Under the pieces are notes generated by a model. The model made no database searches, was not told where the DNA came from, and saw only the letters and a list, made by a program, of their open reading frames with translations. 64,000 bases of DNA from an uncultured Prevotellaceae bacterium (GTDB lineage: Bacteria; Bacteroidota; Bacteroidia; Bacteroidales; Bacteroidaceae). Shown in pieces: positions 37,963 through 49,332 of this stretch (positions within the stretch are counted from its first letter, which is position 1; each line of letters opens with the position of its first letter). The position numbers and the translations under genes were made by a program. Where the stretch lies: the NCBI GenBank assembly GCA_900316685.1, contig ONDS01000010.1, positions 62,001-126,000 of the forward strand. The letters run 5' to 3'.

Positions 37963-38090
37963 ATATTATCCCTCCCGACAGGAGAAGATATATACAAATG
38001 CTGAACCCCCACATAGAGAGGATCTCGTCTTCATTCTTTTTCCGTACTCCGAACAGGCTTACATCGAGCCCGAAGGATCATTCACTAACA

Positions 38091-38268
38091 AGGCAGGTCT
38101 TCTGACTTCGTTCCCCTTCATGCGCCTTCCCGGATAACCAGTGGCTCTGCATGAAAGTATAATGGAACTCACAGCTGCGGGACAGTTGGAGACTCACACT
38201 CCATTCCCTTTTTGATCGCGGCGAGCGAACCTTGTCTTGCGCAATGAAACATTGTTATTTTCATTGTG
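38091..38268 (-). ncRNA. Cobalamin (B12) riboswitch
   Basis: On the minus strand the hallmark B12 box AGTCAGAAGACCTGCC ends the element (38091-38107), the conserved GCCACTG core is at 38139-38145, and a GGGAATGGAGTGTGAGTCTC / CTGTCCCGCAGCTGTGA-type section lies upstream (about 38160-38215). The order and spacing match the cobalamin aptamer. It is preceded by a perfect promoter and followed about 240 bases later by a terminator, but by no B12 transport or synthesis gene. Confidence 0.9.
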
Positions 38269-41777: not shown

Positions 41778-42179
41778 ATGTCCCTTCTTAATTTCCTCAA
41801 CGAAAACGACCGCTTCGCCGCCGCCACGGGCGCACAACTCACCGAGATGCGCGAGGGCTATGCCAAAGCGGTCATGACAGTGAAACAACACCACCTCAAC
41901 GGAGGCAATGTGTGCCAAGGTGGAGCCCTCTTCACCTTGGCCGACCTGGCGATGGCGGCTGTCATGAACAGCCATGGAAAGCTCTCCTTCGGCATCAACA
42001 ACAGCATCTCGTTCCTCAAGTCGGCCAAAGAAGGTGACATCCTCACTGCCGAGGCTGTCGAGGTGTGCAACCATCATCGCATACCCTATGCCGAGGTAAG
42101 GGTCACCAACCAAGACGGCGACCTCATCTGTGTGCTCACAGGCTCATCCTATCGAAAGGATGTGCCCATCGGCGGGTAG
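41778..42179 (+). CDS. PaaI-type hotdog-fold thioesterase
   Basis: 133 residues, one hotdog domain. The conserved N-terminal EMREGYAKAVMTVKQHHLNGGNVCQGGALFTLADLA includes the HLNGGNVCQGG stretch at the active site (Asn/Gly-rich loop then helix) typical of the PaaI family, followed by the SFLKSAKEGDILTAEAV strands. It should hydrolyse aromatic or phenylacetyl-type CoA esters. It is alone on the plus strand, preceded directly by repeats. Its last 28 bases of coding sequence (giving SYRKDVPIGG) recur almost exactly at 46754-46781. Confidence 0.9.
   Translation: MSLLNFLNENDRFAAATGAQLTEMREGYAKAVMTVKQHHLNGGNVCQGGALFTLADLAMAAVMNSHGKLSFGINNSISFLKSAKEGDILTAEAVEVCNHHRIPYAEVRVTNQDGDLICVLTGSSYRKDVPIGG
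42145..42172. repeat. 28-bp direct repeat, copy 1 (3' end of thioesterase gene)
   Basis: catcctatcgaaaggatgtg followed by cccatcgg. The same sequence with one substitution is at 46754-46781. The unit contains an imperfect inverted repeat (catcc..ggatg). Confidence 0.9.
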
Positions 42180-42320
42180 AACCTAAGTGGTTTGACCACA
42201 TCTTGCCTTTGTTATTAAATCAATAGCTACGGCTGGTGTGATGGGGTGGTTCCGACTACCTTTTTCCGTTTTTACAAGTCGTTTTGTCGTTTTTGGCAGT
42301 TCTGAACTTCCTGGTAATGG

Positions 42321-42328
42321 TATCTTTG
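42321..42328 (+). promoter_or_regulatory. -7 box of the kelch-AraC regulator
   Basis: TATCTTTG, 30 bases before the ATG at 42358; it lies inside the longer open frame and so favours the shorter start. Confidence 0.5.
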
Positions 42329-42357
42329 TAGCTTGTTTATACAGTTTGTTGTTCGAT

Positions 42358-44046
42358 ATGTTTCGTGGAATAATTCTGCTCGCTGGTTTCTTGTTGGTTG
42401 AAACGCCTTCGCTGGCAACTGTCGCCGACTCGTTGCCGCTTTGTCCTATGGCCAAGTTGAAGGTGGAGAGACTGCCCGACCTCCATCTGCCGCGCGGTGG
42501 TCATAGCTTGTTTTGTGCAGGCAATGAGATGGTGGCTGTCGGGGGACACACCACGGGCTTCATACCTACTGCCACAGCAGAATATTTCAGCGACGGACAA
42601 TGGCATCTCGTCAATACATTATATCCGCACGACGATGCGTTGGCTGTCGTCCTTCTCTCGGGCAAAGTATTGCTGGCTGGAGGGCATGATAAGTCGATTG
42701 GCATCGGACAGACTTTTCCTGTCGAATTATACGATCCTGACTCTCACTCCTTTGAAGGGATTGGCAGCTTGGACCAAAAACGGACTCTTTGCCAGGGGGT
42801 GGAGATTGACAGTGGGCGTGTGGTGATTTCTGGCAATTGGTATGGGGATGACGGTATTGAGATGTTCGATGGGAAAAGAAGTTTCACGCATGTCAAGGAG
42901 GTGGCCGTACCACGGGCCTCACCCCACATATTTCGCATCGCACCCGACGACGTGCTGATCGTGGGGGCGCTAGATACAAGGGGAGAACGCATCAACGGTG
43001 CGATGGTCGACCGGTTGAGGGGTGAATCGTATGTCGATTCTCTCCTGCTCTCTTGGCATCCGCTTCAACTGCTTTATAACAACCCTCCCAATGGTTTTAT
43101 AGGTGATACGGCAAAAGGGGTGTATGCGCATCGCGTGGCCTTGCAAAACGACAAGGGGCAAGTGGCGTTGGCTATGGTCTCTAAAGCGGGCTTCGAATTA
43201 TTGCCTACGGACTGCCCTGTTCCCTCTCGCAGTAAATGGGGCGATATATCTTATTTCTCTCCCATCATCGTCGACAGCCTTGCAAGGAAAGCGTATCTTG
43301 TGGGCAACGACGAGGAACGGCGGCTTTACGTGCTCTCCATAGATTACAAACCCTATGTGGAAACGGACAAAACGGGGCTTCGCCAGCCGATGGCATTGAA
43401 ACTCTTCTATACCGATCCTATGAAGGAATGTGGTTTCGGTCAGCCTTCGCTCACTCCGGAAGGCAACCTGATGATGGCTGGCGGTATATACGACAATAAT
43501 TTCATGCCTTACAATACTGCTTTCTTGCTCATGGTGGGCAATGAGCTTCCACAAGGGCATGGCCCGGCTGTCCTGTTCTGGGCGATGGGGGGCATGATAC
43601 TGGCTCTGGTCTTGCTCGTTTTCTTCCTTCGCTTGCGTAAGAAATCGGTTTCCGTAGCGCCTGCTCCTTCCCCTAATATCAGGCATGATGGACTGCTGCC
43701 GCGTATACATGAATTGATGAATAGGGAGAAACTTTACCTCAAAAGCGACTTGAAGGTGAGCGAGGTGGCTACTCTTCTCGGCTCCAATAGCCGCTATGTG
43801 AGCGACTGTATAAAACAGTATGAAGGGGTTTCATTCACTCTTTTTGTCAACCGACTGCGTATAGAACATGCCAAACAACTGATGAGGGATAACCCTGACG
43901 CTAAGATCATGAGCGTTTATATGGAGGCGGGGTTCGCCTCGGAATCGTCCTTCTTCCGGACTTTCAAAAGCATTACAGGCATGACGCCCCGGGAATGGTT
44001 GGAGCAGAATGGGGATGGCTTGGCACAAACGACTGACGAAAACTGA
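42358..44046 (+). CDS. Membrane-spanning regulator: kelch beta-propeller, one TM helix, AraC DNA-binding domain
   Basis: 562 residues from the ATG at 42358, which starts a signal-anchor or signal peptide (MFRGIILLAGFLLVETPSLA) and has a -7 box 30 bases upstream. An exported sensor of about 400 residues shows kelch-type repeats (MVAVGGHTTG..AEYF, LLAGGHDKS..VELYDP, VVISGNWYG..IEMFDG). A transmembrane helix follows at about residues 440-462, then a cytosolic AraC/XylS double helix-turn-helix (about 480-590 of the longer frame; LKVSEVATLLGSNSRYVSDCI and AGFASESSFFRTFKSITGMTP). It would sense a ligand in the periplasm and act on transcription directly, like other one-piece Bacteroidetes regulators. 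The two secreted proteins immediately downstream are its likely targets. Confidence 0.88.
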   Translation: MFRGIILLAGFLLVETPSLATVADSLPLCPMAKLKVERLPDLHLPRGGHSLFCAGNEMVAVGGHTTGFIPTATAEYFSDGQWHLVNTLYPHDDALAVVLLSGKVLLAGGHDKSIGIGQTFPVELYDPDSHSFEGIGSLDQKRTLCQGVEIDSGRVVISGNWYGDDGIEMFDGKRSFTHVKEVAVPRASPHIFRIAPDDVLIVGALDTRGERINGAMVDRLRGESYVDSLLLSWHPLQLLYNNPPNGFIGDTAKGVYAHRVALQNDKGQVALAMVSKAGFELLPTDCPVPSRSKWGDISYFSPIIVDSLARKAYLVGNDEERRLYVLSIDYKPYVETDKTGLRQPMALKLFYTDPMKECGFGQPSLTPEGNLMMAGGIYDNNFMPYNTAFLLMVGNELPQGHGPAVLFWAMGGMILALVLLVFFLRLRKKSVSVAPAPSPNIRHDGLLPRIHELMNREKLYLKSDLKVSEVATLLGSNSRYVSDCIKQYEGVSFTLFVNRLRIEHAKQLMRDNPDAKIMSVYMEAGFASESSFFRTFKSITGMTPREWLEQNGDGLAQTTDEN

Positions 44047-44148
44047 TTCCGTCAGTCGTTTTTCTGTTATTGGCAGCTTATATGGGTCGTTTCCTCGTTA
44101 TTTTTGCAAATATTTTTGCAAATAATCTGGAAATAATCAATATTAAGT

Positions 44149-45168
44149 ATGAAAAAAATCTTCTTTTCTTTGTTGGTGTTTGGCTGTGTCGTCGCTGCCA
44201 ATGCACAGAGTGATGTGATGACTGCCACTCTCATGCACGATGGTGTGGTGAGTGTCTTTTCCGGAGCCAATGCTTTCGTTCAGGCTCACGATGCCGCAAC
44301 CGACGGCGATGTGATATCTCTTTCCTCTGGGTCATTCACTTCCCTGACAATCACTAAGTCGGTGACTGTCTACGGGGCGGGATTCGAGAAAGATCAGGCT
44401 ACGGCAACGGATGTGACGCAGTTGAGGAGCGACCTGATAATTGGGGCTGCCGACCAAACGGTCAGCAACGTGCATATAGAGGGACTTTATATCAATGGGG
44501 GCATCATGCTTAATAATAGTTCGGCAAGGGTGGAGGGCCTATTCATCGGCAAATGTTTCCTTCTCAAGGGAATGACCTTCAATAATGGTGCAACGGCCAA
44601 GAACATGCTGGTTCAGGATTGTGTGATGGATGCGGGAATAACGGCTAATAATACATCTTTGGTGGAAAATGCGTACTTTGGTAATTGTTATATCAAAGGC
44701 AACCTGAAAGACTTTCCTGCCGGTAGCTCGATATTGGTCAACCATTGTATCGTTACTGGTGTGGCAGGGCCTTATACTTGGAAAAACAGTATATTTACCC
44801 ATTATTGGAACCTTTATAATTATGGTGCTTTTGACCAAACTACAGGTGCTACCGTCTATAACTGTGTCATTCGGATGGTTTTTAGTTCAGCTTCCGCGAC
44901 AAATAATTCTTTTGTCGACTGCTATTACAGGGTGGGCATAAGGTTGGATCAGATATTTAGCGATGTGACAGGCACGGACTATAATTATTCGCCCTCTCGT
45001 ACTTTCGAACTTGTCAATCCTGAATGGTTAGGCGACGATGGCACCGAAGTGGGCATCCGAGGCGGCGATGGATGGAGCAAGGCTCCGGCCATTCCCGTGG
45101 TGAAAAGCTTAAGCCTCGATGTGGAGGGCAATGAACTGAAAGTGACCTACGAGGCGGAAGTAAGGTAA
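44149..45168 (+). CDS. Secreted right-handed beta-helix-like protein
   Basis: 339 residues. Signal peptide about 1-19 (VVAANA/Q). A repeat of short turns (VHIEGLYINGGIML, VEGLFIGKCFLLKG, MLVQDCVMDAGI, NAYFGNCYIKGN, VYNCVIRMVF) indicates a right-handed beta-helix of about 9 coils, here without pectinase catalytic residues. It ends in KVTYEAEVR, without the shared C-terminal cassette. TATTTTTG -7 boxes lie at 44099-44106 and 44111-44118. The next gene begins 6 bases after the stop, so the two are co-expressed. Confidence 0.8.
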   Translation: MKKIFFSLLVFGCVVAANAQSDVMTATLMHDGVVSVFSGANAFVQAHDAATDGDVISLSSGSFTSLTITKSVTVYGAGFEKDQATATDVTQLRSDLIIGAADQTVSNVHIEGLYINGGIMLNNSSARVEGLFIGKCFLLKGMTFNNGATAKNMLVQDCVMDAGITANNTSLVENAYFGNCYIKGNLKDFPAGSSILVNHCIVTGVAGPYTWKNSIFTHYWNLYNYGAFDQTTGATVYNCVIRMVFSSASATNNSFVDCYYRVGIRLDQIFSDVTGTDYNYSPSRTFELVNPEWLGDDGTEVGIRGGDGWSKAPAIPVVKSLSLDVEGNELKVTYEAEVR

Positions 45169-45174
45169 AAGAGA

Positions 45175-46434
45175 ATGAAAATGAGACATATCAGGTTTTT
45201 GTTGATGACAATGGCGGTCGTGGCCGTAAATGGGGCGGCGGGACAGCCCTCGTTGACGGAGCGCGTCGGCTGGTTCGACAACGATGTGAGCACGCTGACC
45301 GACATCGGACCGTCGGTGGCTGGCATTGATGTGTCGGGGCTGGCGGCTGGCATGCACTCGCTCACCATGCAGGTGAAGGATTCCCAGGGGAAATGGAGCG
45401 TGCCCGTCACGAAATTCTTCGTCGTAAAACCGGCTAAGGTGGATGCCACGGATATCGTGACGCGTAAGTATTGGATAGACAACGACGTGGACAACCGTAC
45501 CGACCTCCAACCGTCTGTGGCTTCGGTTGACATTTCGGCGCTTCCGGTGGGACTTCATTCGCTGACCATGCACGTGCAGGACAATGCGGGAACGTGGAGC
45601 CTCCCTGCCACGAAATTCTTCATCAAGACGGCCTACTCTCAAAATGATAACGATATAGAGCGATGCATGTACTGGTTTGACGATGACGTGCAAAATGCAC
45701 GGGTCGTAGAACCGGCGGAGGCTTCGGGCATTGTCGATGTCGAGGTGACGGGCCTTGATGCGGGAAAACATATCCTCTACTGGCGAGTGGGCGACTTCAA
45801 AGGGGTGTGGAGTGAACATGTGTATAGTGGCCTCTTCAACTATGTAGTGCCTTCGTCGGGACTGGGTACTTTCAGCGCCGATATGAGTCTGGCTCTGCCG
45901 GAAGGACTGGACGCTTATTATACTTCCAGCGAACTGAACTACGCCAACGGAGGACGTCTCTTCGTAAAAGTGAGACCTCTTGACGCTAAGGTCATACCCG
46001 CACAGACGGGTGTCGTGCTCAACGGGACGGGCGGCGATACGTTCATCTTGGTGCAGACCGACGAACAGGCTGACCTCTACGAGGATAATACGCTCGTGCC
46101 GGTGGTCGAGCCTACGCATGTCGAACCCGTAGAGGGCGACTTCACCAACTTCATGCTCAAGAGTGGTAAGTTCATCAGGATTGCCGAAGCAAACCCGACT
46201 TCGACCATGCCTGCCAACAGGGCTTATCTGCAACTGCCAACGGATGCGCTGAACATGGAGGCGGCAGCTAATGGCATTTACATCCTGTGGGATTCGTCGC
46301 AAACCACCGGCATTGGCGACGATCCTTTCCAATTGTCCTCAGACAATGTGTATTACGATTTGCAGGGACGGCGTGTGGTATCTCCTAAGCATGGAGTGTA
46401 TATCACTCGTGGCAAGAAAGTGGTGGTGAAATGA
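45175..46434 (+). CDS. Secreted repeat protein with C-terminal sorting-like cassette
   Basis: 419 residues. Signal peptide about 1-23. Three repeats of about 75 residues follow, each starting with WF/WI-DNDV and running PSVA..D(V/I)S.LP.GLHSLTM.V.D..G.WS.P.TKFF (about 27-90, 95-163 and 170-240). A more compact beta domain of about 130 residues comes next, then the cassette VYYDLQGRRVVSPKHGVYIT. The repeats resemble surface or adhesion modules rather than an enzyme. It is in one operon with the beta-helix protein and probably under the kelch-AraC regulator upstream. Confidence 0.82.
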   Translation: MKMRHIRFLLMTMAVVAVNGAAGQPSLTERVGWFDNDVSTLTDIGPSVAGIDVSGLAAGMHSLTMQVKDSQGKWSVPVTKFFVVKPAKVDATDIVTRKYWIDNDVDNRTDLQPSVASVDISALPVGLHSLTMHVQDNAGTWSLPATKFFIKTAYSQNDNDIERCMYWFDDDVQNARVVEPAEASGIVDVEVTGLDAGKHILYWRVGDFKGVWSEHVYSGLFNYVVPSSGLGTFSADMSLALPEGLDAYYTSSELNYANGGRLFVKVRPLDAKVIPAQTGVVLNGTGGDTFILVQTDEQADLYEDNTLVPVVEPTHVEPVEGDFTNFMLKSGKFIRIAEANPTSTMPANRAYLQLPTDALNMEAAANGIYILWDSSQTTGIGDDPFQLSSDNVYYDLQGRRVVSPKHGVYITRGKKVVVK

Positions 46435-46839
46435 ATAATTACTCATGCTGCAAGCCCGCTTACCACCCCCTATGCCTAAAGAGGGCGGGTTTCATGAGAA
46501 TGCTTCGTAAAACGTGGAAAAATGAAACAGAAACAAGTATATATACGACCTTTGACGAAATACTGCCCCTTGATGGGGGAGGGACCTTTGCTCTACTTCA
46601 CCAGCATTGAAGTGAATACTGTTGAAGAGGGTAATCAGGAAGAGGCTGAAACCAATCAGGCCCTCTTCCAATTCGAAGATCAAGGCATTATTCTTCAATG
46701 GGATGACCCTTGGCGCAAACCATGGTGATGTCGCTATTGGGACGGTGTCAGCACATCCTATCGCAAGGATGTGCCCATCGGGAATAATGCCTGTCTCTAA
46801 GCCAGTCCTCTCCTTCTTGGGGAAGTTGGAAGTGGGCTC
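46435..46839. other. Intergenic remnant region
   Basis: A weak hairpin with arms AGCCCGC / GGCGGGTTT lies at 46450-46492. A 68-codon open frame at 46522-46728 has no promoter or recognised domain. The segment around 46730-46800 resembles the end of the thioesterase gene (28-bp repeat at 46754-46781, giving SYRKDVPIG in one frame), so it may be a remnant of a second thioesterase copy. Confidence 0.5.
46754..46781. repeat. 28-bp direct repeat, copy 2
   Basis: Identical to 42145-42172 except one base (cgaaagg / cgcaagg). The two copies bracket the regulator and the two secreted protein genes (4.6 kb). Confidence 0.9.
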
Positions 46840-47439
46840 TCAGCGACTGAACCGACGGCCGTTCCACTTCAGCGTCGTCTGCCGTTTCCCTCCGTTGTCA
46901 TCCCACTTCGTCTTGATGATGTCCTTGCCTTGGCGAGGCAACGTGTAGGTGGTGTTCATATATTCCACGTCAAAGCCGGGAGCATCACACATACGCATCT
47001 TCTTCGTGGCGTTGTTGTAGCGGAAGAAATCCAATCCGTCGTATTGGCCCATCAATGGCTTGCCGTTCTCATATGACCAGTGGCTGTAGGCGAACAGCTT
47101 GTGCTTGCCGTCGGACTCGTTCCAGTAGCACATCTCCACACGCAACACGAAGTTGTCGTAGGCCCATTCAAAGAGAATGTAGCCGTTCTTCTCGTCTACC
47201 GTGAGCGTCGCCCGTTCAACCTGTGGCTGTCCCTGGCGGTAGCGCAGCAGGGCATTGTATACACCGGAGAAAGCTTCTCTGTCGCACTCGTCCGCCTCCC
47301 TGTCTAACCAGGAGAGATAGGCCCAGGCGAAGTCCGTCACGGTGGGGCGCGCCCCTTGGTAACTCACGCGGATGTCTTCCTGCGCCGCAACGATCAGTGC
47401 GCAGCAGGCAAAGAGCAATGTCAATGTGATTCTTTTCAT
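46840..47439 (-). CDS. Secreted protein of unknown function
   Basis: 199 residues. Signal peptide about 1-20 (ALIVAAQ). The mature part is mixed alpha/beta with a Trp/Tyr-rich middle (ILFEWAYDNFVLRVEMCYWN) and a basic C-terminus (KTKWDDNGGKRQTTLKWNGR). No family is recognised. A TACCTTTG -7 box is present on the minus strand at 47473-47480. A single-gene unit in the accessory island. Confidence 0.7.
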   Translation of the reverse strand: MKRITLTLLFACCALIVAAQEDIRVSYQGARPTVTDFAWAYLSWLDREADECDREAFSGVYNALLRYRQGQPQVERATLTVDEKNGYILFEWAYDNFVLRVEMCYWNESDGKHKLFAYSHWSYENGKPLMGQYDGLDFFRYNNATKKMRMCDAPGFDVEYMNTTYTLPRQGKDIIKTKWDDNGGKRQTTLKWNGRRFSR

Positions 47440-47661
47440 ATCGATAGTTTTTTTATATAGTTAATCTTTTTGCAAAGGTAATACTTCCTTTCCGAATTTC
47501 CAAGATTTTCCCTTTTTTTCTCCCCCTTTTTCCGCCCTTTTTCCCGCCTTTTTCCCGAGGCTGTTAAACCGTTAGGCCAAAGAATATATAAAGATGCGTT
47601 TATCAGGAATGGGAAAGGAATATAATCCGGTTAAACCAAGACAGGACAGGAAACAATCTGT

Positions 47662-47727
47662 GTAGGGGCGGGCTTGTCCAGCCCGACAACGAGGTATATA
47701 AGACGGGCAAGACAAGCATGCCCCTAC
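47662..47727. repeat. 66-bp element with GTAGGGGC...GCCCCTAC inverted ends
   Basis: GTAGGGGCGGGCTTGTC and GACAAGCATGCCCCTAC match as inverted repeats at 15 of 17 positions. Half-elements occur at 2090-2118 and 3983-4010. Confidence 0.8.
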
Positions 47728-47906
47728 AGCGGTGGAAAACGGTGGGATGGAGGACAGACGCGGAGAGTGGCCTATAGGCCGCGTGGGCGGGCACGACGGC
47801 ACCACCCCTACGCTATTGAAGGGGCAGACATATAGTCAGCACCTCTACATGTGGTCGCTAGCAGGCAAACCCGTCCTCCCCCTACAGGGGGAGTTAGAGG
47901 GGGTCA

Positions 47907-47943
47907 TGTTTTAATCGACCTTTTTTTTGAGGCTGTTACCCCC
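47907..47943. repeat. Divergent copy of the 33-34 bp GTTTTAATCG repeat
   Basis: Shares GTTTTAATCG-CC and the long T run with the copies at 48559 and 48915; the right end differs (gaggctgttaccc). It lies 12 bases beyond the stop of the gene at 47955. Confidence 0.55.
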
Positions 47944-47954
47944 CTTTTTTAACC

Positions 47955-48464
47955 TTAATACCAACCACTATAAGAAACGCCGTTAACGGAAAAACTGAAT
48001 GGGTGTACATCTGCGTTGAACCTTTTTGGTCTGTTTGGGTTTCCCACCAACCCAACGGAATAACTGTTTTTATAGCCGTCTTTAACAAGGTGATAATTAC
48101 CATATGCCCAAAAGTCATATTCTTCAATGCCCTTGAGTTTTTTGGGCATTGACTTTTTTTTGCGCCATGTAAACAATACATTTAACATTGTATCTACTTC
48201 ACGACCTATTTCTACCACAACGTCAACCATTGAGTCATCAGTTATATTTTTGGCCTTTAGGTGTTTGTAAACCTCATTATATGGTGGTATGCCATATATT
48301 TTAACCACGGTAGTGTCATAGGTAACTTTAATATCGGTGTTATAGCCTATTTTTTGGACATACGCCCATGTTTTTTCAATACCTTCCTCAAATGGGGTGT
48401 TTTCCACTTGTGCCATAGCGAAAAGTGGAATCATTGCTATAATTATAGTAATTATTTTCTTCAT
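47955..48464 (-). CDS. Secreted protein of unknown function
   Basis: 169 residues. Signal peptide about 1-19 (MKKIITIIIAMIPLFAMAQ). The mature part is about 150 residues, charged, with a conserved-looking VVKIYGIPPYNEVYKHLKA segment and a basic C-terminus ending in VSYSGWY. The codon use is AT-rich, unlike the trp genes nearby. No family is recognised. It lies between two copies of the 33-34 bp repeat. Confidence 0.65.
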   Translation of the reverse strand: MKKIITIIIAMIPLFAMAQVENTPFEEGIEKTWAYVQKIGYNTDIKVTYDTTVVKIYGIPPYNEVYKHLKAKNITDDSMVDVVVEIGREVDTMLNVLFTWRKKKSMPKKLKGIEEYDFWAYGNYHLVKDGYKNSYSVGLVGNPNRPKRFNADVHPFSFSVNGVSYSGWY

Positions 48465-48558
48465 AAAGCATTCAGTATTAATTTCTTATTTCTTTTTCCA
48501 TTCGCAATTGTGGTGCGGTTTCCAAAAAGTCCCTGATTTTTGAGGTTTATTTCATTTT

Positions 48559-48591
48559 GTTTTAATCGCCCCTTTTTTAAGCAATTAAACC
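48559..48591. repeat. 33-34 bp imperfect palindrome, copy 1, at the break in cas12a
   Basis: Begins GTTTTAATCGCCCC, then six T, then AAGCAATTAAACC. The ends are near-complementary over 11 bases (one mismatch, one G-T). On the minus strand it begins at the base where the Cas12a homology stops and supplies the last four codons and stop of the fragment. Confidence 0.85.
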
Positions 48592-48756
48592 ATGGTAACG
48601 GTCTATTATTATTTTCATTATTATATAACTCTCTGCTCTCTGTTCATCTTGAACAATCAACCCTAATTGTTCTATAATATGCTTAGAGCGTTCATCAGGG
48701 ACAAGTTCGAAACGCAATGTCTTTGATAATTGGTATAGGTTAGTAAATCGTTTCAT
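48577..48756 (-). pseudogene. Truncated cas12a (N-terminal 55 residues only)
   Basis: The ATG at 48756 starts MKRFTNLYQLSKTLRFEL, followed by GLIVQDEQRAESY and IIIDRYH, which is the start of Cas12a (Cpf1) in Prevotella and related bacteria: F.NLY.LSKTLRFEL.P...T...I...GL...DE.RA.SY...K.IIDRYH. An intact Cas12a has about 1200-1300 residues; here the frame ends after 59 codons with GLIA encoded by a 33-bp repeat. RuvC and Nuc domains, cas4, cas1, cas2 and a CRISPR array are all absent from the window. A TATATTTG -7 box lies at 48817-48824 upstream, so the start still has a promoter-like site. I recognise this from family memory, not from a search. Confidence 0.8.
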
Positions 48757-49216
48757 TTTATATGACATTATTAATTGTAAATATATTAAATTCTTTATTC
48801 TGAGGATTATAATACGCAAATATAATCGCAGGATGTTCCAAATCATGGGACACCTACTTTTTTTTAAGATTTTTTCAGAAATAAGGAAAAGGGGAGAATA
48901 AAGCAATTTATATAGTTTTAATCGCCCCTTTTTTTAAGCAATTAAACCTTTTAGGTCGTATTGCATTGATGTAAAAGACAGTTATAATTGATTTGTTTCA
49001 AAAAAAAGAAGAACTTTTTCAGCTTTCTCTTGTTTCCTACCATTTTTATTCGTAATATGGAAACGGGGGATAAAGAGGACAACGCATTTCATAGTATGAA
49101 TAGAAAACGTTCAAAAAATGTGGTTTATGGAAAACGTGACGATGTGGAATTCTTCTGATGATAGATAGCTGAAATAATAATTTTTCAATCAAAACCGCAA
49201 AAAAACTTACAATTTA
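48757..49216. other. AT-rich intergenic region between the cas12a fragment and trp
   Basis: It holds the cas12a -7 box (48817-48824, minus), the second 34-bp repeat (48915-48948) and then a low-complexity region. No other gene is supported. Confidence 0.55.
48915..48948. repeat. 33-34 bp imperfect palindrome, copy 2
   Basis: Identical to the copy at 48559 except for one extra T in the T run. Both are in the same orientation and bracket the cas12a fragment as direct repeats 323 bases apart. Confidence 0.9.
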
Positions 49217-49272: not shown

Positions 49273-49332
49273 ATGAGAAAGAACAATAATGCATGGTGGT
49301 GGCGCTGCTCAAGATCCAAAAGTCGTGAGTAA
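49273..49332 (+). CDS. trpL: trp leader peptide
   Basis: 19 codons: MRKNNNAWWWRCSRSKSRE, with three consecutive Trp codons (49294-49302), stop at 49330-49332. It is followed 29 bases later by a terminator hairpin, and then by trpD. Ribosome stalling at the Trp codons when charged tRNA-Trp is scarce would signal the attenuator. Too short for gene finders; called from the Trp run and context. Confidence 0.92.
   Translation: MRKNNNAWWWRCSRSKSRE

Follow-up and report, generated by a model that had tools for sequence, protein, structure and literature searches.

The window analysed here is the whole stretch of 64,000 nucleotides read from the genome of an uncultured Prevotellaceae bacterium. At the locus under study, its minus strand carries a reading frame of 59 codons (ATG at 48756, stop at 48577-48579, 59 residues) whose first 55 codons are homologous to the start of Cas12a. 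Read from 48852 to 48577, this strand starts with a palindrome of 19 bp; a -7 box, some 60 nt of sequence, the ATG and the 55 Cas12a codons follow, and the last four codons and the stop of the frame are sequence of a repeat, R2. These elements and their neighbours are collected in Table 1.

Table 1. Coordinates in the window of the cas12a stub and of the elements around it
Feature	Position	Strand	Basis
Cas12a-homologous coding part, first 55 codons	48592..48756	-	profile, structure-database and protein matches
-7 box TATATTTG of the cas12a-type promoter	48817..48824	-	only perfect TAnnTTTG on the minus strand, 48464-49000
19-bp palindromic operator-like element TGTCCCA-TGATT-TGGAACA, 9 nt before the -7 box	48834..48852	-	pattern search
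Short repeat S, between R3 and the promoter	48871..48912	.	second own-genome copy at C18:121203-121244, 90% alike
34-bp repeat copy R3, oriented as R2 and with an additional T	48915..48948	.	repeat search, folding
Repeat copy R2, 33 bp, imperfect palindrome at whose edge the Cas12a homology ends	48559..48591	.	repeat search, folding
Intact 169-aa ORF downstream of the stub, possible beneficiary of its promoter	47955..48464	-	homologue in G216
Incomplete repeat copy R1, restricted to the left half of R	about 47908..47927	.	repeat search

The 55 codons of Cas12a and their surroundings

The NCBIfam profile TIGR04330 aligns with the 59-residue product over profile positions 2-56 (E 2.2e-14), at 52.2 bits, a score which stays under the curated cut-off of 300 bits. 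The best E-values obtained with the PADLOC Cas12a models and with the Cas12a chains of the PDB are 3.5e-17 and 1.4e-11, respectively, and the conserved core SKTLRFEL...P is present in the first 55 residues; no Pfam family was matched, up to E 10. An earlier note, made from the letters of this DNA, had recognised the first 55 codons of Cas12a here and had proposed a profile comparison of the translation. The match proved significant and the claim is borne out, as is the start given for the peptide, with the correction that its strand is minus, a translation of the plus strand giving nothing.

The end of the homology is equally sharp. In a search of the window with 73 fetched Cas12a proteins longer than 1000 residues (from 92 loci, duplicates included; E up to 1), 73 of the 87 matches fall on the 59-codon frame, and every one of these stops at 48592, the next base, 48591, being the edge of R2; the other 14 are scattered, with E-values of 0.11 or worse. 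The homology does stop, as the earlier note had it, at a 33-bp imperfect palindrome adjoining at 48559-48591. The genome of the bacterium itself was searched as an assembly of 42 contigs, 89.8% complete, to the assembled part of which the absences reported here apply. TIGR04330 found the stub (50.8 bits) and one match of 13.9 bits (E 0.01), and such matches below the cut-off also occur in one of 14 control genomes. The alignment to the stub extends through three stops to profile position 88, yet its 50.8 bits are fewer than the 52.2 bits of the peptide alone, which indicates that nothing recognisable follows the 55 codons. No other piece of Cas12a above chance level is present in this 90% complete assembly. 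The catalytic RuvC and Nuc parts are found neither in the window nor in the assembly, the frame covering profile positions up to 56 only; the earlier statement that the nuclease domains are missing agrees with this. Four neighbouring ORFs gave no Cas match against Pfam, and a search of the assembly for Cas12a-type repeats, also proposed in the earlier note, returned none: the type V-A repeat core has one place with three mismatches, against two for the reversed control.

Matches to the peptide occur in 15 of the 398 genomes of the genus that were searched, its own included. The closest Cas12a found belongs to another species of the same genus (G355) and is 68% identical, on a contig that stops after 109 codons; at the DNA level, the coding part of the stub is 72% identical to this cas12a over 170 nt. 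The scan of genome contigs retained the best 80 of 205 relatives. Cas12a ORFs of less than 1000 residues are present at 19 of the fetched loci: nine run off the sequence, in seven the frame is broken and the remaining part of the gene follows downstream, and three (L039, L094 and L132) end without a further piece.

The interval that holds the stub, upstream of trpD, is variable, and its neighbourhood was compared in seven relatives. In the nearest of them by TrpD (G019, 90% amino acid identity), a thioesterase gene stands immediately before the trp leader and the interval is absent. The window has the same thioesterase gene at 41778-42179, and its homology to the trp region of G019 resumes at 49200; about 7 kb (42180-49200) between this gene and the trp promoter are missing from G019, and the stub lies inside. 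The place had been described as a trpF-trpD interval, which is wrong: the gene on the other side is the 169-aa ORF, without family, and trpD starts the operon behind the trp leader peptide. The names of the trp genes near the stub are presumed ones, recognised in the translations and not by profile. Before trpD, at 49273-49332, a short ORF with three tandem Trp codons is followed by a hairpin-like stretch and a T-run, an arrangement taken here, by recognition, to be the trp leader and attenuator; the leader Trp codons are visible by eye in all seven relatives. The window also contains an intergenic palindromic repeat, in the form of a 25-nt inverted repeat (TGTAGGGGC...GCCCCTACA, 47661-47728), and a cobalamin riboswitch on the minus strand (38076-38249, 100.8 bits).

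The promoter signature and its class

According to PMC7366714, TAnnTTTG is the -7 consensus of Bacteroidota. A perfect box of this type stands at 48824-48817, and the earlier report of promoter-like upstream sequence with an intact -7 box was correct. The signature is conserved: the palindrome, followed by the -7 box at 9 nt, also precedes the cas12a gene of G355, in the same layout as at the stub, and palindrome plus TAnnTTTG at 9 nt is found again before a 127-aa ORF preceding cas12a on a Paludibacteraceae contig. When TGTCYCAYRATTTGRRACA was searched without the box in 200 genomes of the genus, seven sites were obtained in five genomes, against one for the reversed pattern. With these seven and two others, the -7 box lies exactly 9 nt behind the palindrome at nine sites out of nine, and at six out of six once the three sites that suggested the rule are set aside, for a background of 0.0007 per position. 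This class of promoters (palindrome TGTCYCA-N5-TGRRACA, TAnnTTTG 9 nt downstream) comprises the stub, L149, L157-L161, L124 and L025, and stands before accessory genes; the genes behind it include the stub of a C5-methyltransferase, those of an SPFH/GYF protein and of a DUF6794 protein, and others whose products match no family over the cut-off.

The idea of a universal cas12a promoter was rejected, the class being present upstream of two of the 92 fetched cas12a loci and rare outside the genus. The scan of these loci covered up to 900 upstream bases where present and allowed 2 mismatches, several of the 92 being incomplete or duplicating another; the two do not include L026, despite a cas12a start almost identical to the one in L025. 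Across 393 genomes of the order, few of them of the genus, two exact sites were detected, both in the genome of the stub, and two one-mismatch sites in two others, the control giving none. The genome of the stub has two further palindromes with two mismatches, one on C42 with a -7 box at 9 nt and one on C18, inside a gene and without a box at this distance. The former (C42:58797-58815, L152) is the variant TGTACCA-N5-TGGTACA, whose two arms have changed in a matching way; it keeps the 9 nt to TATCTTTG and precedes a 180-aa ORF without family. Five places of a half-defined palindrome in viral contigs have no -7 box by eye, and a search of the literature on regulation and on the palindrome yielded nothing on this element.

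Both exact class-promoter sites of this genome precede stubs of defence-type genes, one of cas12a and one of a C5-methyltransferase. The latter (C13:10332 onward; L153 5333-5870) has the class promoter before a truncated 72-aa ORF which corresponds, over its first ~70 residues, to the N-terminal end of a C5-cytosine methyltransferase (Pfam E 2.9e-8; PADLOC MTase_II 1.3e-18). Two phage-borne homologues of 429 and 403 residues give no piece of the rest with E <0.4 across 7.9 kb, and a 436-aa ORF without family follows. Since the cas12a stub was the starting point, the methyltransferase stub counts as one independent case, and the parallel is a lead only.

The 169-aa ORF downstream is a potential client of the stub promoter. 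It has no family above any cut-off and, in 398 genomes, one strong homologue (G216, 72% identical) plus two more weak matches (E 0.008). The cas12a promoter and its palindrome might have been kept by driving this ORF, the 55 codons serving as an untranslated or short leader cistron; this would be an addition to the reading of the stub as a fossil, not its opposite, and it is unlikely even if several observations are compatible with it. Both frames share a strand, and the -7 box is about 350 bp upstream of the start of the ORF. The G216 homologue has a box of its own (TATATTTG/TATATTTGC), with which the bases CACAATTG of the window are probably aligned, the ORF having apparently lost its -7 box. 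The box of G216 lies, however, about 8 bases past the end of the local BLAST match, the correspondence with CACAATTG resting on a global alignment of two sequences in non-coding DNA, and the odds were slightly lowered because of this position. Boxes with 0 or 1 mismatch are absent between R2 and the ORF start, but a perfect box arises by chance in 1.3% of shuffles of a stretch of this size, so that the absence says little by itself. The stub box is the sole perfect one upstream on the strand, up to 49000; two one-mismatch boxes occur upstream of the ORF as well, at 48785 and 48665, and other promoter types may operate. Behind R2 no U-run is found on the minus strand, and read-through from the stub promoter into the ORF would be plausible. 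The ORF is intact, with a long-term dN/dS against G216 of about 0.19/1.06, a figure that averages both lineages and comes from the one strong homologue among the 398 genomes. Pushed one step further, the argument would make of this locus an effector gene reduced to a regulated promoter and a stub, its promoter taken over by an unrelated gene downstream, in a class that precedes accessory genes of the genus. So complete a scenario is improbable; if true, it would mean that defence genes die by loss of their body while their control elements get recycled.

Repeats, decay and the origin of the breakpoint

R2 and R3 form a direct repeat flanking the stub and differ by one T. The imperfect palindrome of the earlier note thus occurs twice in direct orientation, and once more as a left half. 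On the minus strand, R2 and R3 each form a hairpin with 10 uninterrupted pairs and 2 more (-9.9 and -10.6 kcal/mol; z-scores of -4.4 and -5.2), while the folding is unremarkable for R1 (z -0.95) and for R2 on its plus strand (z -1.7). No U-run stands behind the minus-strand hairpin of R2, and R is therefore not a typical intrinsic terminator. In the genome of the stub, the left part of R with up to 2 mismatches is restricted to R1, R2, R3 and one two-mismatch place elsewhere. Outside the stub locus, the R core is covered by none of the BLAST matches listed for 60 genomes, own included, at most 6 candidates being scored in each, and neither half of it, with up to 4 mismatches, was found in the fetched loci, apart from one four-mismatch match of the left half in L075. 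Repeat S occurs at two sites in 36 genomes, both in the genome of the stub, and the BLAST matches listed contain one of 33 bases, 91% alike, in G024.

The state of the 55 codons was assessed against 86 other unique Cas12a N-termini, a set collected by similarity to the stub, some of whose genes are truncated at the end of a contig or have a broken frame. The stub has the second-lowest leave-one-out profile score of the 87 sequences. Five of its residues are found in none of the other 86 (the mean number of novel residues is 0.9, and one other sequence also has five), one of them being a serine in place of a threonine conserved in 86 of 86. At codon positions 1 and 2, it is on average more distant than 85 of the 86. 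The frame is open across all 55 codons, with no stop and no frameshift, and the differences from the G355 cas12a fall mostly at the third position (14, 7 and 28 by codon position), as under selection, which agrees with the earlier opinion that this is not a very old relic. Synonymous change between these two genes is saturated and no dN/dS is therefore available. Against G355 alone there is no excess at positions 1 and 2, 92% of the 875 pairs matched for third-position distance being as high or higher, so that the case for relaxed selection rests on the wider Cas12a set. Mild decay of the coding part is supported, not proved, by these comparisons, and an indecisive test suggests a gene whose selection ceased late in its history.

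Taken together, the stub is most probably a fairly young 5' fossil, without function, of a type V-A effector gene, consisting of the promoter, leader and first 55 codons of cas12a. At the breakpoint at R2, a rearrangement would have removed, or never brought in, the remainder of the gene, presumably in a single deletion or partial insertion with R2 and R3 as edges. With the rest of cas12a gone, neither nuclease nor guide-binding function would be expected to remain, and the stub has presumably lost its function. The removal by recombination between repeats proposed earlier would need a copy of R inside cas12a at codon 56, and in this genome the R core was found only at the stub locus, apart from the one two-mismatch place. 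Excision via recombination between R2 and R3 is possible, and the two copies could equally mark the ends of an inserted piece.

An insertion, with R2 and R3 as a duplicated target or recombination site and the piece of cas12a placed between them in the manner of a cassette or repair patch, is a possible origin on which some doubt falls. The two copies are direct and alike save one T in 34, R2 bounds the homology exactly, and R is an imperfect palindrome with a partial third copy after the next ORF. Against this, no empty site with a single R was found, R is absent upstream of the homologous ORF in G216 (read by eye) and from the matches listed in relatives, and the exact 19-base R core is missing from the viral contigs searched; moreover the stretch from R3 to the promoter contains repeat S, hence the piece is not pure cas12a DNA. 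The exact end at a repeat in an assembly of 42 contigs, 90% complete, could also suggest a false join at R2 hiding an intact cas12a. This is very unlikely, since the same repeat would be needed inside cas12a at codon 56 and the halves of R, at up to 4 mismatches, are unseen elsewhere in the fetched loci bar the left-half match in L075; separately, a cas12a gene may lie in the missing part of the genome. Hardly credible is a functional micropeptide of 59 residues acting on a Cas12a or a guide RNA. It would account for the open frame, the conserved start region and the kept promoter signature, but the assembly has no other Cas12a and no V-A repeat, a residue conserved in 86 of 86 is changed, and the peptide is presumably not a complete domain of the Cas12a structure. 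The alternative raised in the earlier note, that a short N-terminal peptide is kept, is weakly disfavoured by the five novel residues, one of them at the invariant threonine, and by the distance at positions 1 and 2.

Other origins were considered and set aside. No plasmid matched the protein or the DNA 48400-49200. For a phage origin, one weak match lies at the end of a phage record (E 3e-4) and two viral contigs have 45% identical starts, in the absence of the exact R core from viral contigs. Whether R could stem from an integron cassette was judged by visual inspection.

Comparison with known systems

A clean loss of cas12a which leaves the start and the promoter signature helps to show how CRISPR-Cas systems disappear; reuse of the promoter, if real, would show in addition that the regulatory elements of a defence gene can survive it. 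For some cas12a genes of Bacteroidales, this class of promoters is also a concrete lead to a regulator. A search of the open-access literature found no paper on a natural relic or truncated cas12a, the papers listed being, to judge from their listing, on tools.

The stub resembles Cas12a (Cpf1), the type V-A effector, in its first 55 residues, in the core SKTLRFEL...P and in the promoter layout of G355; it differs by its length (55 residues out of roughly 1250), by the lack of catalytic domains and of any V-A repeat in the assembly, and by a serine in place of an invariant threonine. Degraded or solitary cas genes occur in bacterial genomes, and the stub is like them in that a truncated effector gene is present while the other parts of the system are missing; unlike them, it retains the 5' end of its gene up to a local direct repeat, together with the promoter signature. 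Its -7 box matches that of the Bacteroidota primary promoters (-7 TAnnTTTG, -33 TTTG; -7 consensus from PMC7366714), whereas its class differs by the 19-bp palindrome at a fixed 9 nt from the box in nine sites of nine. Type V-A cas promoters can be autoregulated by CreR-type RNAs, as reviewed in PMC12737573, a mechanism for which Cas12a and a crRNA-like RNA are required; the stub shares with it a regulated cas12a promoter and differs in that no Cas12a was found in its genome assembly, where the palindrome would point to a protein regulator instead. Overall, the locus holds a real and precise 5' stub of cas12a, without sign of Cas12a activity and best filed as a CRISPR-Cas relic, made unusual by its clean cut at a local direct repeat, its kept promoter signature and possibly a new client for that promoter.
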